A DNA stretch of 64,000 bases from Eudorina sp. 2006-703-Eu-15 (lineage: Eukaryota > Chlorophyta > Chlorophyceae > Chlamydomonadales > Volvocaceae). The stretch lies in the NCBI GenBank assembly GCA_003117195.1, contig BDSI01000012.1, positions 496,001-560,000 of the forward strand. The letters are read 5' to 3'. The notes under the pieces were generated by a model. That model searched no databases, had not been told where the DNA came from, and saw only the letters and a program-made list of their open reading frames with translations. This document shows, in pieces, positions 12,297 through 64,000 of this stretch. Every line of letters starts with the position of its first letter. Positions within the stretch are counted from its first letter, which is position 1. Made by a program: the position numbers and the translations under genes.

Positions 12297-12301
12297 TTAC
12301 A
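12297..12301 (-). terminator. TGTAA polyadenylation signal of the KDTA-like gene
   Basis: TGTAA on the minus strand lies about 270 bases past the stop at 12570, a typical volvocine 3' UTR length and the same spacing as in the Gln-rich gene. Confidence 0.5.
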
Positions 12302-12569: not shown

Positions 12570-14642
12570 CTACACCCTGGCACCCCCTGCAGTGATGTAC
12601 TCCTGCAGCGCCGGTGCAATCACCATATCTTCCAACACACTCCACACCGTCGTGACCAAGCTCGATGCCAGTCTTGCGGCGCCCTGCACGCAAGCGACGG
12701 AAAGATGGGGGATGTTGTCGTGGACAAAAGAAACGAGGGGCGCAGCATTCAGCGCTACATTTGAACACAACCGGCATCGCTAAACGAGGACCACACGCTA
12801 CCTAGATCGCCTAAGGTCTTCCCGTACCTGCGCTGCCGCTCGTCCACGTGACCGGCGTTCAATCGGATCCCGCAGCAGCGTCGACAGCGCACTGGCCAGT
12901 TCGTCCTCGTTCGAGACGATCCACACAGCGGGACCGACCCGCGGGTCGCATGTCAGGTGCGCGGCGGGAATCAAATACTGATCCCCGTACCTGCAAACAC
13001 CAGGAGGGCCGTGCCACCGCGGTGTCGGTTGCAAGAACTGGCGTGCCCGGGCCATCATTTCACAGGAAGGACCCTTAGGTTCCTGAATATTTTATTTGCA
13101 GTGAAAACTCATGCCTAGGTCTGCCCAGGCTACCTTCGGCCTTATCTTTTCACCCACATGTCACCCACGGGCCGTACCTTGCGCAGGGTGCCACATAATG
13201 CTCCCTGTCTGGTCCCTGTCCTCCGCCTGTCGATCCAACCGGTGAACCATCCACGGCACCCGCAGCAGCTGCCCTCCGCTCTGGCGTCCTTGAAAGCGGT
13301 TGCTGCATCAGGTTTCGGTCTCGTGGCGGCATCACCGGCGGCGCCGCAGCCGCCGGCGATGTCCCGTTCCTGACATCCAATGCGTTGCCCGGTCCGCAGC
13401 GCTGTGCGCCGTCGTGCTGCTGACGATGACCTAGTGTGTTCACAGCCACGGTGGCGGCGGGCGGCAGCGCTGACTGTCCCATAGCCGGACGGATCTCACC
13501 CTGTTGGGGTGCACGCGGCTCGCCGGGGGCTCCGGTGCCAGATCCCATCGCCTTACCAGCCACTGCGCTCAAACCGTCGCCAGCGGCGGCACTGCCTCCC
13601 GTGCCAGCATGGCCCTGTGAGGCCCCGGCAGTTCCACGACTCTCACCGACGATACCGCTGCCGCCCACCTGAGCCTGCGGCTTCAGGTCCACCGACATCT
13701 CGACGGCTCCGAGACCAGCGAACGGACGCCCGTGCGGCGCCGCCATGTGACCAAAGGCGGCCGGCGATGCGCGCGGGGACAGCGGCGCCGCGGCGTGGTA
13801 GTCAGGGGCCGTGTTGGGCCGACAGCCCTGGGTGGCACCAGCGAAGACCCCGGGACCATCGCGCCCCGCGGATCCTCCGGCCACTGGCAGGGCGGTGGGG
13901 GTCACGACGCGCGTCTCAATAGGCAGGTCCGCGGCACCCTGCTCGGCAGCCATGAACTGCGACTCCAGCACCGCAAGCGCCTCTTGCTCAGCCACGGGCG
14001 GCATGCCGGGCAATGGGATGGAGGAGACCCTGGAGGTGGGGGCCACCCTGGGGCTCGTCGGTACCGGTCCGTAGAACTGTGAGAGCTGCGGGGCCGACTG
14101 ACGGAACATCCGCCGGCCAGACGGCTCCGCGGTGGCGTTGGAACCCGCGTCCTGGGGGCCACCCGGTGAGGGCGCCATCCCCGCGGGGTGCGCCAACACG
14201 GGGGGCCAGTTCGCAGAGGGCCCATAGGCAGGCACCGCAGACACGGAGGCACCGCGGCAGGCCGGCGATTGCCGAAGACGAGGAAGTGGCGGCAGTGCAG
14301 GCAAATGCGGCAGCGACGGGACCGAATGCTGCTGCTGTGCGCCAGAGGTTTCAGCTCCAGGGTGCATCTGCTGCTGTTGCTGCTGCTGCTGCTGCGCAGA
14401 ACCTGCCCCAGCGGGCGACCGGCTGCAGCTGGTGCTCATGCTCTGGCCACTGTATGACGGCTGCGGTGCGTTCCGTTGGGGGGATAGACGCTGCGGCGCC
14501 TCCGGCTCCCCAGAGAGGGACGTCTTGCGAGCCTGCTGCAGCAGCGCCGTCTGCAACAGCGGACTCGAGGGCCTCTTCGTCGTGATGGGGCGCCGACCCC
14601 CGCTGGCGGCCGCCGCCCCGCTAGAAGGGCCTGCAGCGGCCT

Positions 14643-14681
<39 letters not shown>

Positions 14682-17600
14682 GACGGGCACCACCCGACGG
14701 CGTCCCACCCACAAAAACACGCGGCGAGAGCGGCGGCGGCGGCAGCCGCGGCTGCGGTGACACCGGTGACGCCACTTGGACCGTCATGTTCGCCAGAAAC
14801 TCATCCAGCTCGTCAACGGAGCGGCGGTCCGGAGTGGCAGTGCTCGCAGCCCGGTGGCCGCCCTCCGGGAACAGCCGACGCGACACCTGGCTCCAGCTGG
14901 GCGACGGCGGCTCCGCAAGCCCGTGGGTCCCCGGGTTAACGCCGGCGGCGCCAGTGCCGCCGCCGCCAGTCGTAGGTTGGACTGGCGGAAACAGAACACG
15001 CGCGGACCTCGGTGTTCCCTGTGCGCTGGCTGCGTGATAGGGGTGCAGCTGGCGCTCCTGTTGCACCTCCCAGGCCTCATCAGCTGCGGCGGTGAGCGCA
15101 TCGCGGGCAGAGTAGGTTTCGACCTGACCCGACACTGCCGCATCGAGCGCGAAGACCGGCGGCGGGCGGGTGGGTGAGGTCTTCAGCCGGGGCGACCTCG
15201 GCGGCGCCTCCACGGGAGAGACCACGACGTCCATGTAGCCGCAGAGGGATGACGAGAACGACACGGGCAACGGTGCCGGGGCCCCGTCGCGCGCCTCCTC
15301 GCGGCCGCTCTCGCGGCCAGAGAACAGCGCCCGCGCGGACCGCGGCGTGCCGGCCGCGCTCGCGTTGCGCGACTCTGCCCGCGCGCGGTCCCAGGCCTGC
15401 TGCTGCTGCGTCCTCTGATTGTAGAGCTCCTGAGACTGCCGGGCAGCTCCAGACTGTGGACTTAGGGTGGGTTGCACGTCACGGCGGCCAGAGTAGCGAT
15501 GCGGCTGCGGACGCGCCCTGTCTGCCAGGGTTACAAAGCCAGCTGGGGCGCTCGCCCGTGTGGACAGCAGCAGCTCATCCGGTGCGGCTCCAGCGGGCCA
15601 CAGCTCCTGGCGCGGCAGCCAAGGCGCAGTGGGCTGCGAAAACACCGTCGGGCCCAGACCGGCCGCGGCGGCGGCAGCAGCGGTGGGGCTCGGCGGCGCG
15701 CCCACAGCCGGCTGGGTGCGCACGGGCGCCACTGAGCCCAAGCCGGCCGCAGCAGCAGACGCAGAGAATCGCCGGTCCGGGGTGGAGCTGTGGGCGCTTC
15801 CACCAAAGATTGACGAGGCCAGTCCCGCCGCGTCGCTGGAACTGAATGGCGCAAAGAATGTGGCGACGTCCAACGGATCCTGACGAAGCGGCGTATCGGC
15901 GGGGGTGCGCTTCACGGCCGTCATGACCTTGATAGGACTGGCCCGCGGGTCGGTCACGCAGGGGGACATGTACGACGCCGGGGGAGAAGAGGGCACCTGA
16001 GGAAAGCCGCCGCCGCTGGTGCTGGCCCTCGGCGACAGGGGCGGCGGGGACGTCGGCGAGCGCGGGGAAGACTGCGATGGCTGCGCGGGCATGTACGGCA
16101 GCGATACATTGCGCGGCGCCGCATCCGAGATGAAGCTGCGCGGCACGGGCGACGAGTGAGTCGAGTGCAGAGGCGGCTTCACTGGAGACGCACTCGGGCA
16201 GTTGCTCTCCGAGCATCTGGTCCGCTGCTCCGGGGACCGGGGCGGCGAGCCCGCCGCCACCGACGATGATGCCAGGCTGCCCGCGCTGCCGTGACCCAAC
16301 ATGCCGCCTGCTGCGCTGCTGCCGCCCTGCGCCAGGGCACTGCTGCCATCACCGCCAACCTGAACCCCACCGCCACCGCCACCGCTGCCGCTGCCGCCGC
16401 CGCTGCTGCCCCTGACACTGCCACCTACGTTGTTCCCGCTTCCGCTCGCGATGCTGCTGCAGCTGCCGCACCGTGATCCGTCGACGCTGCGGCTGGCGCG
16501 TGGCGTCTCATCCGCCTCATCCGATACGATGATCGACACTTCGGGCAGACCCATGGAGGGCTCCTTCTCCAGTTCGGAGTCGCTGTCCGCGAGGCGGGGG
16601 GTGCTTGTCTGGGAGAGGTTCGACTTGGGCAACGAACCGCTGCCGCCGCCGCCGTTGCCCGGCACTGCCGGCACCACAAGCAGGCCGCCGGACAGGGTGA
16701 TGCGGGGCTGTCGGGGCCCCAGTGACTCTGCCGGGTGCGGAAGCAGCCGTGACTGGGAGGCGGTGTCGCCGCCGCCCTCGTCGTCGTCCGTGTCCGCGAG
16801 GCTTGGGATGCGACTGAACGTGGGCGCATTGTCCAGGTTGATGGGCAGCGAGTTGTTGCCGGCCTGAGCACGGCCGTGGCTGGCCGCCGCTGTGGCCGCC
16901 GTGGCCACCTGGTTGGTGGGCGCCAGTTGTGCTGCCCTGCTCGCCCAGACCGCAGACGTGTCCTGCAGATAGGCGTAGTGCAGACAGGCGTAGTGCAGAC
17001 AGGCGTAGTGCAGATAGGCGTTGTGCATATACAACCATCGTTAACAATAAGAACCTACAAAAGAAGCAACCGAGAGTACGCATGGGAAGTCCGGGCAATG
17101 ACGCGCGGTTCAACGACGCAGACACGTCTGTGTCATCAAGCTTCAGACATCAGGCTGCCTACCATCGGTGCATCAACTGTGTAGCAGACAGGCGAACTGG
17201 GTTCCGGAGCCGATTACCCAAGTATCCAATCCGCACCTGCGAGAGGCTCGACGCCTCCGCATTCATCACGCGGGACATGAAAGGACCTTCTGGACGACCC
17301 GTGCTCGAAGTCGCTACCAGAGCGCCACCGGCCCTGCCGAAGGACAGGCGATGGAGCCCAGGCGACACCTGCTGCGCGAACGCCGACGGCAGCGCTGCGG
17401 CTGCGCTGCCGACGGACGGCAGCAGCGGCGGCAACGGTGCGGCGGCGGGGCCCAGCGACAGGGGCCCGGCGCCCGGCGACAGTCCGCCGCGGAGGGGGGC
17501 ACCTCGCAGTGCAGCCGCCGGACCCGCCTCGGCAGCGGCCGCCGCCGCGGCCAGCGGGCCGTCGTCCCGTGGCGCTTGCATTGAGAACAGGACGTTGTGG

Positions 17601-20600
17601 CTGTTGGCCCGAGGGGACAGGGGCTCGGGATCCTCCGACTCGTCGGCGGCCGCTTGCCCGGCTGCCAGCTCTTCTTCTTCCTCCTCCAGAAAGAGACTCC
17701 GAAAGGCCGTTCCCGGTCCCGGACTGTTCGACGGCCCCGCAACGGACGATGCCATCGCTGCCGCGAAGGGCGACTTGTACGGTGAAGAATAGGGACTCAC
17801 GTGCAGCGAGCCTGCCGGACGAGCGGGGCTCTTTGTAGGCCCTGCGCGCACCGCCGCGTCAAACGACTCCTCAAAGCGCTCGGGGTCGTTGTGGAAGTTG
17901 GGGCTCTTGGGGGGCTGGAGGACCGGACGGCGCTCGCGGAAAGGGGACGAGGCCGTATCTGCGGCGCGGGACGTTGGAGTATTCGGGCAGTCTGACGAGC
18001 CATCCGAGCCGCAGGACTGCAGCACATTCGCCGCCTGAACCCCCGCTGCCATGTCTGCGGCGCTGCTGATGTTATAGAGGCCGAGCCCGCCCGAGCCGCC
18101 AGCCCGTGGGGAGACGGGCAACAGCGCCGCAGCGCCGGGGACGACGGAGAAGGTGCTCCGCAGCGGCGAAGATGACGGAGACGCCCGGTGGACTGGCATC
18201 GACATACGCCTCTGGAGTTCCCGGCGTGGGGTGTTGATGGAGGGCAGCGCCACAGGCAGCGGCGAACGGTCGCCTCGCGGCGCCTCCCCAGCGCGCGAGA
18301 GGCGGCCACTTGTGCCGCCGGGTGCGCCTCCATGCATCCACAACTCCTGTGGCTGCGATGGGCTGGTGAGGACAGACAGCATCGCCTCCGTCGGTGCAAC
18401 TGCAGGCACTGGCGAGGATAAGGACCCGACGGGTGCCGGGCCATGTTGCTCCGCTGCCGGTGACATGACGCGCGCGACCCGAACCGGCGACACTGGCGAA
18501 CGCGGGGAGTTCAGCAGCGCAGATAGCTCATCCTTATGAGTCGAGCGCCGCGTGGTGTCGGCGGCGGCCACGACCGGCTCAGCCCTTGGATAGGTCGCCG
18601 CCGCCACCGCCGATGGCGGCGGCGGCGGCAGCGGCCGCGGCGGAGGACTGAAAGTGCCAGTTCCGCTGCCGGTGCCAGCCGCCGCGGCTGCAGAGTACTG
18701 CGACGGCTTACCCACTGTGAAGGCCGACGTCACCTGCTCGCTGCTCACCGAGCTGGTCGGCCGCAACGGCGAACTCGAAGTCGCCGCGCCTCTTGGCGAC
18801 AGGATACTCATGGCGGGCGGCGGCAGCGGCGCGGGGTAGCTGGGTGCCGCGTGCGCCGCCGGGAACAGGGTCGTGGTGACCGACGCAAGCGCCTGCGGAT
18901 TAAAGCCCAGCGGCCTGTCGTCATCAAAAGCCCGCAAGGGGGAGTGCATGGGCGCACGCAGTCCCGAGGCGACGCCCTCGAGCGCCACGGCCGGCGCCGG
19001 CATTCCGCCACTGGCGTCCCGCTGCCCCAGCTGCTGCGAAAACCACACCCTGGGGTCGTGCTGTGCCTGGCTGCGCTGCAACCCCGGGGACGGCTGCGGC
19101 AACATGACGCCAAAATGGTCCAGCCAGCTGCCAATGGATGCCACCTGGTGGAAGCCGGTGGAGCCCCGCGTGCCGATGCTGGCTGCGCTGACCGCAGGGG
19201 ACAGTGACGGCCCGCGCGCCGATGACAGCTCAGCAGGGCCTGCGCCTTCGCCGCCAGAGCCCGACACCGAGCGGCTGCGATCGTCGCCGGTGTTTGCGAG
19301 CGGCACAGCAGAGGCGATGCCATCAGGCAGCCACTGGAAGCATGTTTGGCCAGCAAAGCAGCTGCCAGCGTTGTAGGGGCTGCTCTCTGTCGAGCCACCC
19401 CCGGTCGACGGCCCGGGAACCGGCTGCCGTGGCGCCTGGAAGCGCGAGGGCTGCATGACGGGAGAGCCGTTGCGTGTCGGGCTTCTCGAGGGTCCGGACT
19501 CTGACCAGCTGTTGCTGCTTGATGGGCTGCTGGTACGGCTGTTCGGCCGCTGAGCCCCCGACTGGGAGCTTGCCGCAGCCTCAGACTGCAGGGAGCCCAC
19601 CTCCTGACCGTCTGCCGCAATGTACGACTGCAAGTTGGCGCCCGAGCCGTTGTGCACGGACGCCGTTGCCAGCAGCGTCGGTGACCCGGAGCCCGTGTCG
19701 TCCGGCACAGAGCCGCCAAACTCGAAATCCGACTTGGGACTCTCCGCAGTGCAGCCCGGATGAGCGTCCGCCACCGCTCGGCGCGCAGTGGTCTCGGAGC
19801 CCAGAGAGCCGCCACCGCTCGACGCCGCGAAGCTGGTGGGGCTCGAACCCATCACGTCTTCCTCCTGACCGACCGGTATCTCCGGCACTGCGGCCGAGAC
19901 GACAGTAGGTGATGGCTCACTGGAGTTGCTGTCGGGATCTCCATCCGCAGCCACGGCGTCCTCTCCGATAGCAACTCGCGGGGGCAACGGCAGCAGCGCC
20001 GTGCTGCCTGGCTCATCGCCCGTCAGGCCATTGATACCGTCGGAGTCAGCGCCAACACCAGCAACGCCGCCAACACCAGCAGCAGCCTCCTTGCATTCCG
20101 GAAGCACCGCGCCTTGATCCTCGTCTCCAGTCTCCGGCGCAGTCCCCGCCGCTTCACCCAGACCCACCAGGTTTGTCATGCTGCCATTCGCCGTCGGCAC
20201 CTTCAACGCCATCCGTATCAGGCTCCCGCGCGCCGCACGGCCCATGGTAGCGCTCGGCGACGAGGCCATGAGCGCCAGCGGATTCTCGGTTTGGAGGTAG
20301 TGGTCCAGGGAGCCGCGGAAGCTGGGCTGCGGGCTTTCAGCCCAGATGCCATACGCTTCACGCACAGCCGTGGCGCTGCCGGGCTGGGAGGTGACCGACC
20401 GGACCGCAGGCTCCATCGGAAACGCGCCCTCGTCCTCAAAAATCGTCGCCATGTTGACGTCGTTGGCCCACGTCTCCGCAAGCGCAGCGTCATTGAGGTC
20501 CGAGGGTTTCGGCGACTTGTCTGCCGACGCTGACGCGGCCTGGATGGCGATAGGGGCCGAACAGACTGCCGCAGAGCTCTCGGATGTCCCGGAAGCAGCA

Positions 20601-23600
20601 CACGACGCAGCCGACGCCGAGTCTTGGTGGACGGCGTCGACCACAGAGGACGTCGCGATGGGCCACTGCTGGGGAAGGTTGCATGGAGCGTCTGTTTCGG
20701 CGCCCATCAAGAGCAACAGGCTCGGATCCGAGGGCAGGCCGGGGTCACTGACCATGTGGCGAGCCTCGCGCTTGCCCATCCGCTTCGGCCAGTCGGCCTC
20801 CAGTTCGTCAACGCAATCCGCGCCGCCTCCATCCCTGCAGATGACCAGGTGCCCGAGGTGCGTTCCGCGAGGCGGTGGCAAATCGTCAAGGGCAGGCGCG
20901 AAGCCTTGGCCGTCGTCCTCCGCCAGCTGTGGCACCCTCAGGCTCCGCGCTGATACCTCGCCGCCGGTCTCGTCAGAGGTGAAGAGTGCCTTGTAGCGCT
21001 GCGCGGCGTTCGTAGATCCGACTACTCCATCGGGGGCTTGCAGCCCATCAGCCGACGCGGGCGCGTCCTTAACCCCAATCAGGTTGATCGCGCTTGCCGT
21101 CGAGACCTCAGCGATCTCGCAGGACAGCTCAGCCGGCTTCTGCTGTCGGCCAGCAGCATCCGACAGCAAGGCTTCCTCCGACAGCTCCACACCCTCCAGT
21201 CCAGCGGTAACCTCTTCCAGCAGCCTCGACGCGGACGCGCTTTCACCGGCGCGGGCTACGGCAGTCGCATTGTCACTCGTTACGACTGCTGCAGCCGTAT
21301 CCACTGACGCAACAGCCACGGCTTGCGGAACCAGCTCCTCTCCGACCTGATCAGTCTCCACAGCATCGTGGAAGTCGTTGTCGTCCATCTCTGACCCGAC
21401 GCCGTCGTCAGTGTCACCGGACTGGCGGCTTGCCGGGTCAGCCGGCGGCGCGAGCGGCAACTCAACAGCGGCAGAACTGCAGGTTTTGTTGGTTGCAGCG
21501 GGTTGCGCAGCAGCTGGCTGACGTGTATCCTCCGAGCCGCGCCCCGAGGAGGCCTGCAGGTGCAGGGGACGCCTCGTTGCTCCACGCCAACATCGCAGCG
21601 CGTGGCATGCAAATTGGTTGCAAGGTGGTTGTAGGCATATCTTACGCGGCAATGGGCTCCAGCAGAAAGGACACCCCCCCACACACACACTATTCATGGC
21701 ATTTTCACACTTGCAGAAGCGGCCAAGGGCTGGCACAACGCACAGAGGCCGAAAGCCAAACACTTTCTGACCATCACATTGTCCTGTGACCGGCTTTGTG
21801 TGTGGCCCCTTCCAAGTCGACGACGAGCCGCACCTGAGGATTCGCATAGTCGCGCGGCGCAGGGGCCTCTGATCCGCTTGCGGCTTGTGACTGCTCCGCG
21901 TGTGCGTTTCCGTCGCGCATCATCTTGGTGCATGTCCCGGCAGCAGATGCGTGCCCAGTCAGAGGCGCTCCGTCGTTATTGCGCGCAGTCGCCACACCCG
22001 GCTCCTCGTCCTCCGAGTCAGACGTTGAAGACGCGCTGGCAGAGTCCTCCGAATCCTTGTCCTGCGTGTAGCCGAAGCCAATCACCTCCCTGCTGGTCGC
22101 CCAACGAAACCGATCGATTGCGCGCCGGCGTGTCCGATTCCCGTTCGTGCCGCAGGCTGTGGGCGCTGAGGCCGGGGTCGCAAAGTCCATCGAGGTAGCC
22201 TGCTCGGGACTGAACGCCGCCAAGCCAGGGCCTCCGAAACCGTACGGCACGCCAGGGGTCGTGAACGGCGCAATCAAGACGGTCTGGCCATTCGCGCCCG
22301 GCTGGAGGGCGTACGACTCATACGACAGACCGCCAAGAGGCGAAAGGCCAAAGGACGGCGCACCGGGCCGCAGGCCAAAGAATTCGGGAATTGTTGGAGG
22401 TGCCGACATAGGCCTACAGAAGGGACAAGGACAGGCGGCGTATAAACTCAGCATATACCAGATGCACCTGGTATATAGAAACATTTGCACATTGGACTGT
22501 CGCTTAGGTTTATAACAATAAGGACCGGCCATGCCATGTTGAGCTGCTGACCAGGCCATGCATCTGATCCGCCAATTAGACACCACACGGTGAACGCGCG
22601 TGCGATACAACGGGACCTACGGACCTACCGCGAGGAACGCACGGGACGGTGCGCGTCCGACATCAGTTGCTGCCAGGAGGGGCCGCTGCTCCCAGGCGCT
22701 CCGCCATCCACCGCGCCATCGACAACTACTGATGTGGATCCAAAGCTGTCGAGCGTGCCAGTCCTCGGGGCAGCACCCTCCATCCGGACCCCGGTCGAGG
22801 AGCTACCGCGACCCTGTTCAGGCGCCCGGCTTTCACGCGGCGTATCGTAGCCGGCTGGGTTGATCCCGCGCATCGTTGCGCCCGTCTGCGCCACGGCCGC
22901 CGCCACCTCATCCGACGCCATTATGGCAGCGTGGTTAAGATCCGTCGCCATGCCTTGGAACTCCGCGCCGTGCGGGCCCATCAGCAGCGCGCAGCCCGCC
23001 ACAGCCGGCGCGGCCGGGCTGCTCGCGCCGTCGAGCGAAGGGAGCAACGAGCCCCCCACAAGCACCACCTCGCTAAGAGAGTACAGCGCTGTGAGGGCTT
23101 CGGGATCGTCCAGTACGAGCACATCCACATCCGACGTCAACCCTGTACGGCAGTACATGAATCGAATGCAAACCATGACACGAAACCATCAAGCACAGTA
23201 GGATAGATACCACACGTGGAATGCTAACCATGACACGAAACCATCAAGGAAAGTAGGATAGATACCACACGTGGAATGCTGGAAGAGACACATTTTTTCC
23301 ATGCAGGTGTTAAGAGCCGACTTACGCCCTGGCTCCTCGACAGCCACACTCAGCAGCTCGACTTGCAACCGCTTCTCGGCGGATACCCGTCGCGCTGCAG
23401 CGGAATATGCTGACGACGCTTGGCTGCTGGAGACCGACGGGGTGCGGCCATCCGCCGGTGATGTCACCCGAGGGGCAATCAGCGTCAGCAGTCCTTTGTG
23501 CCGGCTGCGAAGAGCCGCATGGATGCGCGCTACGACCACGTCCTCGCCAGGGAGCGTATTGGCTGCAATCCAGAGCTGCCGCTTCGCCAGCCCTGCATGC

Positions 23601-25332
23601 AAAAGGGACAGGACCGGGAACTCAAAAACTTCTGCGCGGAAATGTCCTGCACTGTTAGGCTCCGGTATTCGGCTGCTCCTCGCCCAGAAAACTTACGCTT
23701 CAAGAGCGGCCGGCAAAGCTTAGGTCGCTGGTGCAGCAGGCGTGTTGCGCACGCCCCCAACTCGGACGCTTGCTGCAGATCCGTTGACCAACCGGGCATC
23801 TGCCCAAGCGTCGCTCCGAACATGCGAAAGCGCCCCACGTCCTGCAGGATCAGGCCGAAATCCGCGTTGAACCCGGGGCGGAAATGGGCTGACGTCCAAT
23901 CCGCGCGCCTTTCAGATACCCCCCTGTCCACGCTCGGGCCGGAGTTGACACGCTCGAGACAATGCGCCTCTGGACGCTGGGGCTGGTGCGCGCGTGGTCG
24001 CTTCAAGCATCTCATGATGCAATGTGCCGTACTTGGGCGCTCTACATTGTCGACGAATTCAGTGATCAAGTGGCACCTGAGACCTTTAAACTCACCACGT
24101 ACGTGCGCGGCACAATCAGACTGTAGGACCGCAGCGCCTGCTTCAGCATCTCCCGGCTGGTCTGCCGCGCATGCCATTCAATCATGTCCTCTCCGGGCAT
24201 GTGCGCGTTCAGCAGTGCGAGCCGTACCCCCGACTCCCGGGCCATCAGCGCGAGCTGGCGGTGGAACGGTGTCTCCTGCGTGCCGGAAAAGCGAGGTGCT
24301 TTAGGCCCAGTCGTTTCGGGAATCTGGAGCGTGACATTTTGCCGACACTCTCACCAGAAACACTCCGACTTGCGGTTGCCATTTTCGCAAGAATGCGGAG
24401 ATCGTGAGAGGGTTCGCCATGGGCACCAGCTGGACCAGGACCTGGGGAACAAGGGGACCGAAGGCATTCTTGAGATAAACCCTATGAGATGCACCCGATA
24501 GATTCCGGTGGAAGGAGTGCAGAACTTGCCCCTGCCGATGAGCGTTGGTGTGGATCGCTTGGGTCGCGTGCGAAACCAATACCCCGACCCCGCCTTACCC
24601 TCTGGGGAAGAGCCTCCACTAGCAGCTTGTACACATCTATGCACGGTGTAGTCACCAGCACGGTAACTTTTTCGTTGTATTCCTGCTTGTGGTCAATTCA
24701 AGGAGAGGTGACACAACAGCTCAATCGTAAAAGACGGCGTGGTAGATTCTTTGCACTGGAGATAACGTTTACTTGACCACTTGCAAGAACGGATTGGATG
24801 CTTGTGAAGTTGCTGAAACCCAACACGATCGAGTACTCCAACCGTCGCGTGACGCACCCATCCGCTACAAGTCTATTTTTAACGCACCTGGAGGCATCTG
24901 AACACCACAGGTAGCACCGTTGAGGTCTCCCCTGTACAAAATGGGCAAGGAATTGTGTTGCACAGGTTTTGGCGCGCTCACGCCTGCCCGAGGCAACCTT
25001 ACCGACTCCATTCACATGAAACCAGAGTACTGGTCCATTACGACGCTCAATACTGCTCCATCCAAGCCGTTGAAGCTACATTCATGAAACAAGAGCGCGC
25101 TTCAGCACTTGCACGGGAATCGAATTGGCAAATCTACGCTCACCGCCATTCCCAGGGTCTCCTGCTTATTAAGCATACGCAGAGCCAGATACGCCAATGA
25201 TCCTGGAAGCTTGGCTACCCCCTACCGCGCAAGATGTCAAGTCACAATATGTTCAACCAAACTGCAGCAGCCTGTAAGGTTTAACAGTAACATTCTTACC
25301 CATGCGAAGGCAAGAATGTTATTGCCCTCCAT
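12570..25332 (-). CDS. KDTA: Kdo-transferase-like protein (KDTA/WaaA family) with giant insert
   Basis: The family (GT30) transfers 3-deoxy-D-manno-octulosonate to a lipid A-type acceptor; plant KDTA is mitochondrial. Minus-strand exons: 25332-25300, 25221-25144, 25075-25003, 24931-24888, 24682-24599, 24441-24355, 24275-24096, 23841-23697, 23592-23326, 23142-22629, 22413-21834, 21553-17237, 16962-13178, 12990-12828, 12683-12570. All junctions are GT...AG and in phase, giving 3,487 aa. Family blocks appear in order: PVLWFHVNGVGE, VTVLVTTPCIDVYKLL, WIAANTLPGED, EVVLVGGSLLPSL, then after the insert DELASALSTLLRDP and a terminal helix. The usual protein is about 420-450 aa; exons 11-13 (8,682 nt) add 2,894 codons. 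Skipping them keeps frame and gives 593 aa. Several family signature residues look lost (the GHN..E segment reads GASSPAAPA), so activity is doubtful. The start ATG is chosen because its 11-codon exon joins in phase 0 to the conserved N-terminal helix. Confidence 0.8.
13150..22413 (-). CDS. Giant disordered cassette inside KDTA (insert or nested gene)
   Basis: Three exons (22413-21834, 21553-17237, 16962-13178) carry open frames rich in Ser, Pro, Ala and Gly. No folded domain was recognised. Ser-Pro and Thr-Pro pairs are very frequent, GTPRSAR occurs twice, TPDRR twice, and four RxLF tetrapeptides occur (RSLF, RVLF, RALF, RRLF). The first exon has an ATG four bases after its acceptor (22409), giving MSAPPTIPEFFGLRP. 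If the last donor (13177) is ignored, the frame stops at 13150. The cassette could thus be an independent same-strand gene of about 2,900 aa nested in a 9.6-kb KDTA intron, an alternative cassette, or a constitutive insertion. Splice phases fit all three. The intron at 17236-16963 holds a 15-bp repeat. Confidence 0.6.
16968..17027. repeat. 15-bp tandem repeat abutting an intron acceptor
   Basis: Four copies of a 15-bp unit (GACAGGCGTAGTGCA and variants) lie immediately upstream, in the minus-strand sense, of the acceptor CTGCAG at 16963-16968. They occupy the place of the polypyrimidine tract, which on the minus strand reads as repeated CTGCACTACGCC. Confidence 0.85.
22453..22476. promoter_or_regulatory. 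Palindrome with TATA-like core upstream of the cassette ATG
   Basis: ATATACCAG and CTGGTATAT form a perfect 9-bp inverted repeat around a 6-base centre. On the minus strand, a TATATA word at its edge sits about 65 bases before the ATG at 22409. It lies within the intron that separates the last pre-insert KDTA exon from the cassette. It could be a core-promoter element for a nested transcript, a protein-binding palindrome, or chance. Confidence 0.3.
23171..23280. repeat. 55-bp tandem duplication in a KDTA intron
   Basis: Two adjacent 55-bp copies (23171-23225 and 23226-23280), starting AACCATGACACGAAACCATC, differ at only about two positions. They fill most of the 183-bp intron between KDTA exons 9 and 10, so the duplication is recent. 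Confidence 0.95.
25288..25321. repeat. Inverted repeat over the first KDTA 5' splice site
   Basis: TAACATTCTT and AAGAATGTTA are perfect 10-bp inverted arms separated by 14 bases. In the transcript the hairpin would enclose the end of the 11-codon first exon and hold the GTAAGA donor in its loop and stem base. Confidence 0.6.
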
Positions 25333-33988: not shown

Positions 33989-36900
33989 ATGGAAACGGCC
34001 GCTTCCCCCTGCCACTTAATCCACAACCGGCCTGCAGGCGCTGACCTCGCGGTCCTCAATCGCGCGGCGCTTGATGCCGCGCTGCGGGAACTCCCTCAGC
34101 AGGTCGCCGTACTGTACGTGCCGTACACAAGCACGTCTATCCCCGCAGCGGCGCAGCCCGAGGGGTTGGCCGCCAGCGCAGGCCAGCACCAGAGTTGCAG
34201 TGGCGTCGCTGGCGAGCGTCGGAGAGCTGAGATGACTCCAGGGTCTGGTGGTGGTGGTGATTTCACCCAGCAGCAGCAAGGCAGCGGCGGCGGCCTGGTT
34301 ACTGGGCCCGCCGCTGCCTCGTCGCAGGGCCAGGCACAGTCCCCGCATCGCCATCTGGTAATCACCACGGAGCAGGGCTCCACAGCTCTGGGCGTGGTGC
34401 TCACAAACCGCGCCGCGGTGGGCGCCCTGCAGCTGGCTGATGACGACGACATACTGCGCTTTCTGGCACGCGCATTCGAGCGGGACTCGTGCCTTCGAGT
34501 GCTGTTCCAGGATATCGTCAAGTAAGAATGAACCTGGGACCAACTCTGTTACGATGCATGCCACACCTGGGTGCGGGGGAGCGCACCGGCGAGCGAGGAA
34601 AATGGTGCAAACAGAGACTGCCAAGAGGGGCGGGCGTGACAACTGCCCATGAGGTTTAGCTGGCAGCATGGGATACGGCTCGTGAATGCCCCGCGGCAAC
34701 GCTTACAGACGACTCCGTCGTGTTCATGTAGAAACAAGGGGGCGGGGCGATGAGGCGAGGGCGGCCCCCGCGTCCCGCAGGCGACGCTGTTGACTTGTGG
34801 ACTGTTTGGCAACGCTGTTGACTCGTGGACTGTTTGAAGGCACCCCGTGGGGCGCCTCATGCCCTGCACCGATGCCCGCAACGCGCTCGGAGCCCCACGT
34901 TTCTTGGTGCTGCCTGCACACCCGCGATGCCCGCGAAGACCCGCTCGTTCCGTCTGCCCCTGGCCAGCCGACTGCTGCAGGGCAACCTGCACACGGTCCA
35001 CCACTTCGTGCCCGGCGACTTCGGACGGGGCCGCTACTTCCTGAGCTTGCGGGTGGGTGGGATCCGTGAAAAAGGGGTACCGAAATTCGGTAGGCAACAA
35101 CAATGAAACGCACTGACTGCCTGAAGAGGGAGTTGCTCCGCAGCGTCAGCGCCTGCGGGCGGGTGTACAGCTTGTGTCGCCGTCAAGCACGGGGCCCAGG
35201 GAAAGGACATGAAGATTCCCCCAGGCCCCGTCCTCTCCTCTCAATTACCCCATCTGGGTCCGCCCCTCATATGCCGCGCGATGGGTCGGCTGCAGGTCTC
35301 CGCCTTTGTCTACCAGACCGACTCGGGACCCGGACCTGGACCCGGACCCGGCCACCTCTCCTGCCCCGGCGCCTTTGCATCCGAGAGCATCCCCGGCGTG
35401 CACCAGGCGCCCGCCTCGCAGGCCTCGGGGAGCCACTCGGCGCTTCCCAGCGCGGGGGGCTTCGCGAGGTCTCCGACGGCGGCGCACCTGGCGCCGGGGG
35501 CTGTGACCCCGGCCATGATCCTGGAACTGGACGTGCCGTACGAGGGCAAGGAGCTGGCGGCGCGGCTCCAGCGGGACTACATGATCATCTCCAACATCCC
35601 CTGCATCGTCACCATGTTTGACGCCGAGGGGTGAGTAGCGGCGTAATGACCGGAAATATTGTTATCAAGGATGTTACAGCGGACCCTGCGGGTCATCGGT
35701 GAGAGCCGGAGGTATGTTGCACGAGCAGGGGCACCCAGGGCGTCCGAGCGGCTACGCGCTGCGCTGGAATGGTGTACCACCCATCAGGACCGGCGGGCCC
35801 CGCTCTTCACCGAGCGAGCCTCCAGGGAATGCACCCGTGCTGTGCGTGTTTCACGAGAAGCCCACCCGAACCACCCAAGATGCCCAAGATGCTTACCCGT
35901 CAAGCTGCAATGTGCTTACCAGGGAGGCGGCGAAACGTGCAATTTGCAAACAAAACAAGACGGCCGCGCCACCACCGGTGTGCTAAGCAAGCGTGATTTG
36001 AACTAAGGATAACGTTGTGCGTGTGTGTGTGTGGGTAGGTGGGTGGTGTCGATCGGTGGGCAGGAGTGGGGCGTGGGCATGGGCACGGGGGCGCCCAACG
36101 TTTGCCCGTATGCGTAAACTATGCATCCCATGCCCGGGCGTGTGCGTGTGTGTATGCGCGCGCGCGAGTGTGTATTAGAAACGGAGTGCGTGTATTCACC
36201 CTGCGCGAGTGTGTGCGTGTGTGATCAGATGCTCCCGATCTGATCCGCCGGAAGCCCCGCCCGGTTGTATATGCCCTGTGCGTCTCCTTTGCGACCCTCA
36301 GGCGCGTCGTACACCAGAACCGCGCCAGCATCGCCTACATGGGCCACATGGTGGGCTTGGAGCAGCAGCAGGAGCAGCGGCGGCAGTCTGTAAAGCAGCT
36401 GCAGCAGCTCACCCCGGCGCCGGAGCTCGCACGTCAGACTCAGGGGCCTAGGGAGGGGCCCAGTCCGAATCGGCTGCAGCAGCTGTTTGCAGAGGACCCC
36501 GCCAAGCTGCGGGAGGTCATGCAGGCGCTGGCGGGTGGTGCAGGGGTGAGTGGGGTGTGTTTAGCAGGGGTTGGGGGATGAGTGGCGTGTGTCCAGCAGG
36601 GGTTGGGGGGGTGAGCGGGGTGTGTTCAGCAGGGGTTGGGGGGATGAGCGGGGTGTGTTCAGCAGGGGTTGGGGGGGATGAGCGGGGTGTGTTCAGCAGG
36701 GGTTGGGGGGATGAGCGGGGTGTGTTCAGCAGGGGTTGGGGGTTGGGGGGGATGAGCTGGGTGTGTCCAGCAGGGGTTGGGGGGATGAGTGGGGTGTGTG
36801 GTAACCAAACCTGCCCGAACCAAAGCAGTCGCAGAATGATAAAAACGGCGGCCATAATCTGAGGAGTGGGGCAGTTGAAGGCGAGCCCTGGAGAAATCGA

Positions 36901-44038: not shown

Positions 44039-46893
44039 GCGGCATTTTTCGCGGCTCAGTTTTCATTGACACACACGCGCGCGGGCTGATCATTAAACAC
44101 ACACGCACGCGCGCGCGCCGGCTCACTCGTACCACGACCCGCAGCCTAACCGACGTGTACGGCGTGTACAAGGTGGAGACCATCGGCGACTGCTACATGG
44201 TGGCGGGCGGGCTGATGGCTCGCGACGAGGCGGGCGGGTACGGCAGGGCTGTACGGGGCCCCGGCGAGGCTGACCCGCTCCACGCGATGCGGGTGGTGGC
44301 CTTCGCGCGGGCCATGCTGGAGGAGGCCGCAAAGGTGGCGCTGCCCAACACGGGGGAGCCGGTGCAGGTACGGTACTTGCGTGTGTGTGTGGGGTGTGTG
44401 TTTAGGTTGCGAGGTTTCCATGGGCCTGTGAGACGGCTCTGTCCACGTCATGGAGGGCAAACCCCTGCCTATCAGTACTTACAGAATTGCAGGGCAGGCA
44501 GTGTGTGACATGGGTTTAGAAATGCAACCCGCCCGCCCTCCCGATCCCAGGTGGCAATAGGGTGACATGTGTTAAAATAAACCGAGAGACATGTGTGTTT
44601 AGAAGTGCAACCCGCCCGCCCGCCCGAGACATGTGTGTGTGGGGGGGGGACAGGAGTGCGTGACATGCGAGGGGGGGCAGAGCAGTGCCCAAATGAATGA
44701 TACATGACACTGTGTCATTGTTTGAGGAGGGGAGGGCCGCCTGAGAGGTGGCCTCGTCTCGGGGCGGCGTCGCTCAGCGTGTCACCACCAGTTCGTGCTC
44801 GCCTGTGGTTGCGAGTACGACATTTTCTTCCTGTGTTGATATTTGTGTGGATGTGGACGCGGAGGTGCACGTGTATGCGGATGTGTGTGTGTGTGTATGA
44901 GTGTTTTGGCGGAGTCGAGAAGGCCTCAGCACCCCTCCGACCCCGACCCCGACCCCGGTCACCCCGCCGCCCCGCCGCCCCCTCCAGATGCGAGTGGGCA
45001 TCCACAGCGGCTCCGCCATGAGCGGCGTGGTGGGGCAGAAGATGCCACGGTTCTGTCTCTTCGGTGAGCGCCTCCTCCCCGCGGGTGTGGGTGTGGGTGT
45101 GGGACTGGGTGGGTGATCGGGGGTCACAGCTGGCCGACCCCCATTGTATGGGCCGGCCCCGGCCACCCGGGCCCTCTGGGACGGGGGGCTAAATTAAAAA
45201 AATAAATAAACCCGTAGAACGAACCCGGGCACACCCAGCATAACGCAGTATACTTACGGGGTGCATCGACGGACCTCAACTCTATCCCCGCCCTCGTCAC
45301 CTCCTCGCCTAATCCTTCCTGCTCCCAACCGCCCTCGCAAATGGCCGCAGGTGACACGATCAACACCGCGAGCCGCATGGTGAGCTGACCCGCGGGTCGC
45401 GGCGCCGACGCGCTGTGGGGGGGCTCCGGGGGGAAGTTTCGCCGCCACGTGTTTTCGGCCGGGCTGGGGCGTGCTGCCTGGTTAGGACACGACAGGACGG
45501 GACCTCTTCCCGGTTCCTGGGCCATTTGGTACAGACGGGGCGGCCCAGCCGGGTCTGCGCCCACCCGAAGCGAGTTCGCGGCGCAGACGTGGGCTCCCTC
45601 CCTCCCCCGGTTGGTCGCACCCGCTGCCTCGCCGGCTTGCGTCAATGTTCCGCGTCATCTCTCTCTCGCGGCTGTGTGCGTCGTTTTCCTACAGGTCCTG
45701 CCATCCCAGGTCCTCTGCGCGTCGTTTTCATAGCACACCATGGACCCTCCCTCCCAACGTCCCCTCCAACTCCCTCCCTGGCCCCCTCCCTCCCTGGCCC
45801 CCTCCCTCCCTGGCCCCCTCCCTCCCTGGCCCCCTCCCTCCCTGGCCCCCTCCCTCCCTGGCCCCCTCCCTGCCCCCCTCCCTCCCTGGCCCCCTCCCTC
45901 CCTGGCCCCCTCCCTCCCTTGCCCCCTCCCTCCCTGGCCCCCTCCCTCCCTGGCCCCCTCCCTCCCTGGCGCCTCTCCGCCACCGCAGGAGAGCACGGGG
46001 ACCCCGGGGGCGATCCACGTGTCCGCCGCCACCCGGTCGCTGCTGCCGCCGGAGGAGGACGACGAGCTGTGGGCGCCCACGGGCGGCGTGGAGGTCAAGG
46101 GCAAGGGGCGCATGGACACGGTGGGGAGGGGGGCGGGCGGGGGGCGGCGCGTGTATCGTGGGGGAAACTGAGCCGCGAGACTAGGCGACGGGGAAGATGG
46201 GTTTGTTTGTGGTGGTGGATGAGGGGTCAGTTGGGCGTGTCCCCCGGCCTGCACACGTCCTTCCTTAAGTTCCACACACGTCAACTTGTGATCTGGGTCC
46301 CGACATGTACGGACGCCGCGCGGGCCTAACGCACCCAAAGATTGGGATTCCGTACATTTTATATTCCCGAGGCCAAGATCCGCAGCCGGTTCTAACCGCT
46401 GGTCTGTTCTGTCCGCCGCCCCCTTGCCCTCCTTGTCCTCCTGTTCCTCCTTGTCCTCCTTGCCACCGCCCTCCAGTACATGTGGTCGCCCCGCACACGT
46501 GCCGCCAATCGCCAGCGGCGCAGCATGGAGCAGCGCGCGCGGCTGCTGGGCACGCTCAGCACGCTCAGCACGGAGTCGCGGCAGCCCTCCCGGACCCCCT
46601 CCCGCCAGGCCTCTCCGCTGCTGTCGCCGTCCGGCAGCATCACCGCGCCCAAGGGGCTGCCGCTGTTCGGGCCGCCGCCGCCGCCCTCATCCCCGCGGGC
46701 CACGGCCGCTCCCACAGCCTCCTCACAGCCTCCGCCTCCGCAAGAACTGCATCACCAGCACCACGCGCAGCACGCGCAGCAGCACCGGGCTGCAGCGAGC
46801 CGCGGCTCCAAGCCCAGTTCAGGCGGTCGGGGCCGAGGGGTCGGTGGCGTTGCGGCGGCGAGCGCGTTTGATCCGACAAGCACCGTCTGCTGA
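33989..46893 (+). CDS. PAS-domain class III nucleotide cyclase, guanylate-type
   Basis: The product should make cGMP from GTP. Modelled exons: 33989-34521, 34893-35052, 35296-35630, 36302-36545, 37117-38689, 39198-39490, 39964-40086, 40393-42057, 42554-42580, 42789-42944, 43497-43548, 43671-43758, 44145-44367, 44988-45063, 45351-45379, 45989-46120, 46477-46893. Phases fit throughout, giving about 2,041 aa. A PAS half ([30 protein letters not shown]) is followed by some 1,150-1,200 disordered residues. The last PAS strands come next ([21 protein letters not shown]), then a signalling helix ([12 protein letters not shown]) and the catalytic domain. Both metal Asp are present ([19 protein letters not shown]), as are Asn/Arg in NTASRM and [11 protein letters not shown]. 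The purine-selecting positions read Glu (KVETIGD) and Cys (RFCLFGD), as in guanylate rather than adenylate cyclases. No membrane segment was seen. Exons 9-17 are firm; exon 2's acceptor, exons 6-7 and the start codon are uncertain. Confidence 0.85.
34784..34839. repeat. 28-bp tandem duplication
   Basis: ACGCTGTTGACTTGTGGACT and the following bases are repeated directly (34784-34811, 34812-34839) with a few changes. It lies in the first cyclase intron, close to the uncertain exon 2 acceptor. Confidence 0.85.
35660..35715 (-). repeat. Dispersed repeat R1, copy b
   Basis: On the minus strand it reads CTCACCGATGACCCGCAGGG then TCCGCTGTAACATCCTTG. It is inserted just after the donor of cyclase exon 3, with an AT-rich tail (ATAACAATATT) as in copy a. 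Confidence 0.75.
36546..36795. repeat. Intronic minisatellite, about 35-bp unit
   Basis: About seven imperfect copies of a G-rich unit containing GATGAGCGGGGTGTGTTCAG and CAGGGGTTGGGG fill the start of cyclase intron 4. The GT-rich units contain several cryptic GTGAG-like donors. Confidence 0.9.
42284..42345. repeat. 15-bp tandem repeat TTTCCTTTCCTCGGA
   Basis: Four tandem copies lie in cyclase intron 8, just after the giant-insert exon. Confidence 0.9.
42554..42580 (+). CDS. 27-nt micro-exon of the cyclase gene
   Basis: CAG precedes it, GTACGG follows it, and it encodes only VIQTDVTSK in phase 0. These are the last PAS strand and the DVT that normally leads into the linker helix. It is part of the cyclase CDS and is listed separately because gene finders often miss exons this short. 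Confidence 0.8.
43930..44095. repeat. (CA)n arrays embedded in a duplicated unit
   Basis: Long CA runs alternate with copies of a unit containing CGGCATTTTTCGCGGCTCAG, at least two almost identical, in cyclase intron 12. The arrays end about 50 bases before the exon acceptor at 44144. Confidence 0.9.
44511..44630 (+). repeat. Two copies of the GTGTTTA...ACCCGCCCG motif (R2)
   Basis: GGGTTTAGAAATGCAACCCG (44515 region) and GTGTTTAGAAGTGCAACCCG (44597 region) sit in cyclase intron 13, with GTTAAAATAAACCGAGAGAC between them. The last word also occurs near 43046. Related copies occur near 27.0 (minus), 36.8, 42.5, 43.8 (minus), 48.47 and 52.08 kb. Confidence 0.7.
45770..45970. repeat. Minisatellite CCCTCCCTGGCCCCCT
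   Basis: About a dozen tandem 16-bp units fill the 3' half of cyclase intron 15 and form a very long pyrimidine tract up to the exon 16 acceptor at 45986-45988. Open frames across it on either strand are repeat artefacts. Confidence 0.95.
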
Positions 46894-63549: not shown

Positions 63550-64000
63550 NNNNNNNNNNNNNNNNNNNNNNNNNNNNNNNNNNNNNNNNNNNNNNNNNNN
63601 NNNNNNNNNNNNNNNNNNNNNNNNNNNNNNNNNNNNNNNNNNNNNNNNNNNNNNNNNNNNNNNNNNNNNNNNNNNNNNNNNNNNNNNNNNNNNNNNNNNN
63701 NNNNNNNNNNNNNNNNNNNNNNNNNNNNNNNNNNNNNNNNNNNNNNNNNNNNNNNNNNNNNNNNNNNNNNNNNNNNNNNNNNNNNNNNNNNNNNNNNNNN
63801 NNNNNNNNNNNNNNNNNNNNNNNNNNNNNNNNNNNNNNNNNNNNNNNNNNNNNNNNNNNNNNNNNNNNNNNNNNNNNNNNNNNNNNNNNNNNNNNNNNNN
63901 NNNNNNNNNNNNNNNNNNNNNNNNNNNNNNNNNNNNNNNNNNNNNNNNNNNNNNNNNNNNNNNNNNNNNNNNNNNNNNNNNNNNNNNNNNNNNNNNNNNN
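63550..64000. other. Assembly gap (N)
   Basis: A run of N from 63550 to the end of the window, starting 28 bases into intron 6 of oxygenase copy 2. Confidence 1.

Follow-up and report, generated by a model that had tools for sequence, protein, structure and literature searches.

The closest described counterparts of the gene treated here are the bacterial 3-deoxy-D-manno-oct-2-ulosonic acid (Kdo) transferases WaaA/KdtA, represented by 2xci/2xcu from Aquifex and 4bfc from Acinetobacter. For Aquifex WaaA, a review (PMC6286764) lists E31 as the base together with S28, E98, W102 and K162, and R212, N273 and E276 for cytidine monophosphate (CMP). The gene itself lies on the minus strand of a 64,000-nucleotide window (the whole stretch of DNA analysed; contig BDSI01000012.1, positions 496,001 to 560,000) from Eudorina sp. 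2006-703-Eu-15, an alga with Pleodorina and Volvox as near relatives, and is the sole KDTA/WaaA-type gene, with a predicted glycosyltransferase B (GT-B) fold, that homology searches detected in its genome. By alignment it has in common with the bacterial enzymes the order of segments, the GE motif, GGS, GPH and the C-terminal helices; the likeness of fold was shown on the relative from Ostreobium, not on the window protein. Unlike bacterial WaaA, the window protein carries an insert of about 2,980 residues and has lost the equivalents of N273, E276, W102 and K162.

Plant KDTA, as exemplified by the Coffea protein P0005, is 29% identical and equally laid out, but is without the insert and retains the motifs. 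Nearer are the KDTA proteins of Ostreobium quekettii and Tetraselmis (P0001, P0003 and P0004; P0003 is Tetraselmis astigmatica by its taxid, and P0004 is assigned to Tetraselmis by the name of its source), which are 36–41% identical and have a Ser/Pro-rich insert at the same site, followed by the same conserved block, GP[AC]VW...ERRSRG. They differ from the window protein in that their inserts measure only 210–467 residues and the known active-site residues are retained. Most similar are the giants P0008–P0012 of Volvox africanus, Pleodorina starrii, Gonium pectorale and Chlamydomonas eustigma, which have the same architecture and, in the volvocines, recognisably the same insert sequence; they differ in length and divergence, and no sequence likeness can be recognised in the insert of C. 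eustigma. The architecture is thus already in databases, in giants named hypothetical protein or after the transferase family. In the open-licence literature searched, there was no description of a decayed GT-B protein with a constrained giant disordered loop, nor, to judge by title and opening of the abstract among the papers listed, of this gene or its insert in green algae. In the reading that we favour, with a probability of about 0.7, the gene encodes a lineage-specific pseudo-glycosyltransferase with a constitutive giant disordered loop that is targeted by a proline-directed kinase.

Structure of the Gene

The gene model is a chain of 15 exons running from 25332 down to 12570 in one frame of 3,487 codons, with introns of 68–280 nt that are all (14/14) bordered by GT and AG. 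Three giant low-complexity exons, exon 11 (21834..22413), exon 12 (17237..21553; 1,439 codons) and exon 13 (13178..16962), contribute 580, 4,317 and 3,785 nt, or 8,682 nt and 2,894 codons in all, and are flanked on both sides by KDTA-family exons, 12 small ones in total. The chain without this cassette encodes 593 residues instead of 3,487. The sequence-only reading of this DNA had given the same cassette size, canonical junctions, exon layout and two protein lengths, and all were reproduced, with exon 1 included. Between 12.0 and 23.5 kb, the minus strand stays free of stops for up to 1,586 codons, against a maximum of 490 among 200 mononucleotide shuffles, so the long frames are not a product of chance.

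Exon 1 (25300..25332) supplies the ATG and the residues MEGNNILAFAW, and was placed by resemblance to MKRNNFLAYIR of V. africanus. The N-terminal part of the KDTA domain begins in exon 2 (25144..25221) and goes on in exon 3 (25003..25075), which encodes FHVNGVG and the beginning of the xxGE motif of the catalytic base, the GE being completed in exon 4 (24888..24931). Exons 5 (24599..24682) and 6 (24355..24441) are followed by exon 7 (24096..24275), with ETPFHRQ where the ESELWPN region is expected, by exon 8 (23697..23841), with DLQQA where the DLKYA region is expected, and by exon 9 (23326..23592), with PRVT where the PRHP region is expected. Exon 10 (22629..23142) contains GGSLLP, has DGASSPAAPA in place of GHNxxEA and ends in phase 2; at its 3' end about 80 residues of the insert are already encoded, ahead of the cassette. 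Exon 13 likewise ends in phase 2. Exon 14 (12828..12990), which starts in phase 2 and reads YGDQYLIPAAH...GPAVW...ERRSRGRAAAQ, encodes the C-terminal strand and helix of this GT-B domain, and exon 15 (12570..12683), which ends in the stop codon TAG, encodes the last helix. A TGTAA, which we take to be the polyadenylation signal in these algae, is a candidate at 12297..12301, 269 nt past the stop codon.

Within the intron between exons 9 and 10 there is a 55-bp tandem repeat of 2.1 copies (23164–23280), and a 15-bp tandem repeat of 4.5 copies (16964–17031) reaches the acceptor of exon 13; each unit of the latter holds CTGCA on the minus strand and the final copy makes the CTGCAG acceptor. The 8-mer AGGTACGG overlaps the donor of exon 13 and the acceptor and donor of exon 14 (near 13178, 12990 and 12828). 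As it occurs at either end of the last cassette intron, a target duplication was considered; this idea was dropped and the 8-mer is read as splice consensus.

Descent from KDTA/WaaA

Homology across both GT-B domains makes the gene a member of the KDTA/WaaA family by descent. The spliced small exons match the lipid IV(A) Kdo transferase model NF004387 at 3e-41 over residues 1–398, with a score of 141.6 bits that is below the curated WaaA/KdtA cut-off of 617 bits, and the match to Aquifex WaaA is weak (5e-4). Identity to the green-algal KDTA proteins is considerably clearer: 41% for Ostreobium (3.4e-99), 43% for Tetradesmus and 36% for Tetraselmis. That the exons downstream of the cassette are KDTA-like, as the earlier reading had it, also held, since the Ostreobium query matches both exon 14 (E 4.1e-11, 57% identity, query 871–930) and exon 15 (E 0.0034, query 922–954), though an NCBIfam scan of the 91-residue C-terminal piece by itself gave no match; the identity of the C-terminal part therefore rests on relatives rather than a curated profile. 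All six matches of the Ostreobium query and both matches of the KDTA profile across the 181-Mb genome fall in this locus. The Pfam family PF04413 (Glycos_transf_N) recognises the V. africanus ortholog at 64.9 bits (cut-off 23.9), and its six-frame genome search gave no match, the split gene of the window included. The six Chlamydomonadales sequences form one group in the tree (97/98).

The Insert in Other Green Algae

Three protein searches (lengths of about 320–6,083 residues) yielded at least 14 homologs among the matches listed, namely 11 chlorophyte-type proteins, one plant protein and two bacterial or metagenomic ones. The insert is present in all seven of the chlorophyte-type proteins that have both flanks in the usual order. 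Measured between fixed anchors, it comprises 210 and 246 residues in Tetraselmis, 467 in Ostreobium, 2,412 in Gonium, 2,820 in V. africanus, 2,832 in C. eustigma, 3,297 in Pleodorina and 2,977 here. Among the remaining four, the Tetradesmus and UWO241 models stop short of the second flank, a V. africanus record breaks off at APCAR, and in P0014 the order of the two halves is reversed. No insert occurs in the three non-chlorophyte homologs among the matches listed, and none of the 14 homologs is a chlorophyte protein from which the cassette has been skipped. The comparison with Gonium, V. africanus and C. eustigma, which the sequence-only reading had in essence called for, revealed a giant insert at the same place, and alignment with relatives bears out its placement of the insertion point between the GGSLLP region and the last helices.

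The V. africanus, Pleodorina, Gonium and C. eustigma relatives are annotated as single proteins of 2,842–3,731 residues. The residues at the border of exons 10 and 11, RPMSAP or RPMTAP, are found in four of the five relative records tested, i.e., in all four volvocine records and not in C. eustigma, and the APCARY at the border of exons 13 and 14 is kept in two of the four relatives that reach it (Pleodorina and V. africanus). Border residues common to several species favour genuine splicing into the cassette, though the models of the relatives are predicted. Identity to other volvocines is 70–80% in the domain versus 33–53% in the insert, a difference suggesting that the fold is still needed.

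Two of the database models deserve a remark. In P0014 (1,875 residues, EukProt gene12675-15905_t), the C-terminal part of KDTA precedes the N-terminal part, as if the model spanned two tandem copies or resulted from a misassembly. In the Tetraselmis model P0004, a stretch of about 35 residues leading into and surrounding the THxGEE motif is missing, probably because of a gap in gene prediction.

Decay of the Active Site

Known site residues were mapped by motif on an alignment of 13 sequences, from which P0009 and P0014 were excluded. The equivalents of W102 and of the CMP-contacting N273 and E276 (GHNxxE) are changed in all six Chlamydomonadales sequences; in the window protein N273 is replaced by S, E276 by A, K162 by Q and W102 by H. 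The K162 equivalent is changed in five of the six, UWO241 keeping K, while those of R212 and E98 are each changed in four, the former being kept here and in Pleodorina and the latter here and in V. africanus. Only three of these sequences reach the position of S28, which is changed in all of them, and the same three keep E31. All eight site residues are retained in Ostreobium, both Tetraselmis proteins and Tetradesmus. The two bacterial-type sequences are themselves imperfect, as E31 is replaced by D and E98 by Y in one of them. Over the columns invariant in five references (Ostreobium, Tetraselmis P0003, Coffea, P0006 and P0007), the window protein keeps 35 of 49 and Tetradesmus 37 of 44. Because residues that contact CMP-Kdo in bacterial WaaA are lost in the clade, the domain most likely no longer transfers Kdo, to judge from sequence.

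The supply of Kdo is a related matter. 2-Keto sugar acids are reported from the theca of Tetraselmis (PMC10762512), and one survey gives Kdo-8-P synthase homologs in six of 13 green algae (PMC6200933), which fits patchy loss. In the genome of the window, KdsA and KdsB gave no match with TIGR01362 and TIGR00466 (E ≤ 1) or with PF00793 and PF02348 (E ≤ 0.001), in a six-frame search that may miss split genes. The ispD control was found in the same genome, but it is one open frame; of the profiles for the split KDTA gene, the KDTA profile found it and PF04413 missed it.

Composition and Motifs of the Insert

The insert is a low-complexity sequence rich in Ala, Ser, Pro and Gly, with runs of Ala, Gly and Gln, and a Pfam scan of the cassette gave no domain over the cut-off (best DUF982, E 0.044). 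Yet four volvocine sequences retain six islands in which 8 or more of 12 columns are identical, including the surroundings of HQVASIGSWLD, of CPNTPTSR..SPFR and of QQQ..WDRARAESR..SAAGTPRSARALF. Conservation also has a direction: serines and threonines followed by proline are identical to Pleodorina, V. africanus and Gonium in 73, 72 and 54% of cases, respectively, against 45, 40 and 28% for other Ser/Thr, and those that come after proline in 43, 50 and 33%. Among 11 next-residue classes, Ser/Thr before Pro ranks first in conservation in the comparisons with Pleodorina and V. africanus, and it ranks second of 10 in that with Gonium.

The patterns [ST]Px[RK] and [RK]xLF exceed the counts in reversed sequences in all five giants; for [RK]xLF the numbers are small (5, 5, 3, 4 and 2, versus 0, 0, 0, 0 and 1 reversed). 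In the short inserts of Ostreobium and Tetraselmis, [ST]P is above shuffles. The S/T-P and [RK]xLF motifs, which we take to be of the proline-directed-kinase and cyclin-docking types, exceed local sequence composition and are conserved, in a comparison whose controls were reversed or shuffled insert sequences.

Weighing of the Explanations

Several observations weigh against a constitutive giant loop serving as a kinase target. Among the matches listed in the three protein searches, no homolog bears the name of C. reinhardtii or V. carteri. Gonium and C. eustigma have not retained APCARY, the two internal cassette borders sit in poorly conserved stretches, and the relatives are represented by predicted gene models, which in Pleodorina, Gonium and C. 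eustigma begin inside the domain. Beyond the volvocines (C. eustigma, UWO241, Ostreobium) only the position of the insert is common, as far as sequence comparison goes, and not its sequence. In pairwise Smith-Waterman alignments of the insert, block shuffles score as high in 12 of 40 cases for C. eustigma, 19 for UWO241 and 16 for Ostreobium; P0014 is marginal (1/40), and the others beyond the volvocines are not above shuffles. A profile of the volvocine insert gave no match outside volvocines with default filters; with filters off, only Tetradesmus emerged (E 0.0035; best shuffle 0.1), C. eustigma, UWO241, Ostreobium and Tetraselmis being no better than their own shuffles. Given these null results, the TPTS(R) motif common to C. 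eustigma and P0014 is only a hint of shared insert sequence. As to the motifs, Ser/Thr before Asp is kept in 59% of cases in Gonium (n=17), above S/T-P, Ser/Thr after Val in 70% in V. africanus (n=23), TP alone shows no excess here (16 forward, 23 reversed), and the inserts of Ostreobium and Tetraselmis, like the partial one of UWO241, contain no [RK]xLF. On the enzymatic side, Tetradesmus has lost seven of the 44 reference columns despite its intact known site residues, and the decay is therefore graded and not a single step; and the window protein still has the equivalents of E31 (the base), E98 and R212, so that its activity may have changed instead of disappearing.

These three residues and the well-conserved GT-B domain are what would be expected of a working glycosyltransferase, perhaps with another donor, in which the insert is a neutral expansion in a GC-rich genome; much of the insert is indeed fast-evolving and holds runs of Ala, Gly and Gln. 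Against it stand the loss of the N273, E276 and W102 equivalents in all six aligned Chlamydomonadales sequences, the six islands and the directional S/T-P conservation, and we regard this explanation as unlikely, if the best of the alternatives.

More improbable is the explanation put forward in the sequence-only reading, in which the three giant exons are an optional cassette and splicing picks either a 593-residue Kdo transferase or the 3,487-residue giant. The junction made by skipping is in phase 2 on both sides, and nothing in the sequence forbids it. The phase symmetry is thus real, but is weak evidence for an optional cassette, since any in-frame chain shares it and an unrelated insert has it one time in three. 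Against skipping stand the insert in all seven relatives with both flanks, on which ground the explanation was rejected, the absence of a skipped form among the 14 homologs, the residues of the first border kept in all four volvocine records, and the part of the insert encoded in exon 10. The short form would not be the near-normal enzyme that had been envisaged either, as it would still be without the CMP-contacting N and E and the equivalents of K162 and W102. A minor isoform produced by skipping may nevertheless exist.

A separate gene on the same strand, nested in a 9.6-kb KDTA intron, would account for the distinct composition of the cassette and for an in-frame ATG near the start of exon 11 (PMSAPP). 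Both borders, however, are read through in volvocine proteins; the four introns of the cassette, taken as exons, measure 187–280 nt and the other ten 68–254 nt, where otherwise a single intron of 9.6 kb would be needed; and the cassette introns contain no TGTAA, the only copy between the cassette ends being coding (15535). This explanation was rejected as very improbable. An assembly or annotation artefact that fuses unrelated loci is hardly credible, given the equal architecture in proteins of four other species and the position of the only N run of the window, at 63550–64000, and no support for it was found.

Elsewhere in the window, a Pfam scan of the ten other long open frames gave no family over the cut-off (PRIMA1 was a weak match below it, E 0.0084). 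Long tandem arrays are present at 45770–45970 (16 bp × 12.8) and 36543–36799 (33 bp × 7.6).

A Proposed Model: Giant Loop on a Retired Enzyme

In the favoured model of a pseudo-glycosyltransferase with a giant loop, the KDTA exons and the cassette probably belong to one transcript, from which a protein of 3,487 residues would be made, and inclusion of the cassette in the mRNA of this species would be constitutive. The disordered insert of about 2,980 residues would emerge from the C-terminal Rossmann domain as a loop that links a helix to the next strand. In this lineage it would be an ordinary component of the protein, present at all times, short in Ostreobium and Tetraselmis and reaching thousands of residues in the Chlamydomonadales proteins that span it. 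With Kdo transfer most likely gone in the Chlamydomonadales, selection may have preserved the GT-B body as a folded anchor. The insert may act, if expressed, as a long flexible platform or scaffold, which a proline-directed (cyclin-dependent or mitogen-activated protein) kinase would read and phosphorylate through its Ser/Thr-Pro sites and its docking motifs of the [RK]xLF type.

We put forward more tentatively a scenario for the origin and use of this platform. In an ancestor of the Chlamydomonadales, a Kdo transferase with a product that was no longer needed might have turned into a giant pseudoenzyme, in which the dead GT-B domain anchors a cyclin-docked multisite phosphorylation platform of 2,400–3,300 residues that could serve, e.g., in the timing of multiple fission or in volvocine wall or matrix assembly. 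The conserved S/T-P and [RK]xLF sites are direct mutational targets. Moreover, the series from Tetraselmis and Ostreobium, with an intact site and a short insert, to Chlamydomonas and Volvox, with a decayed site and a giant one, makes the order of events testable. If true, this would be a clear case of the reuse of an enzyme fold, in which a disordered insertion of some 3,000 residues in a compact glycosyltransferase domain has been kept across volvocine genera as the residues of the active site decayed.

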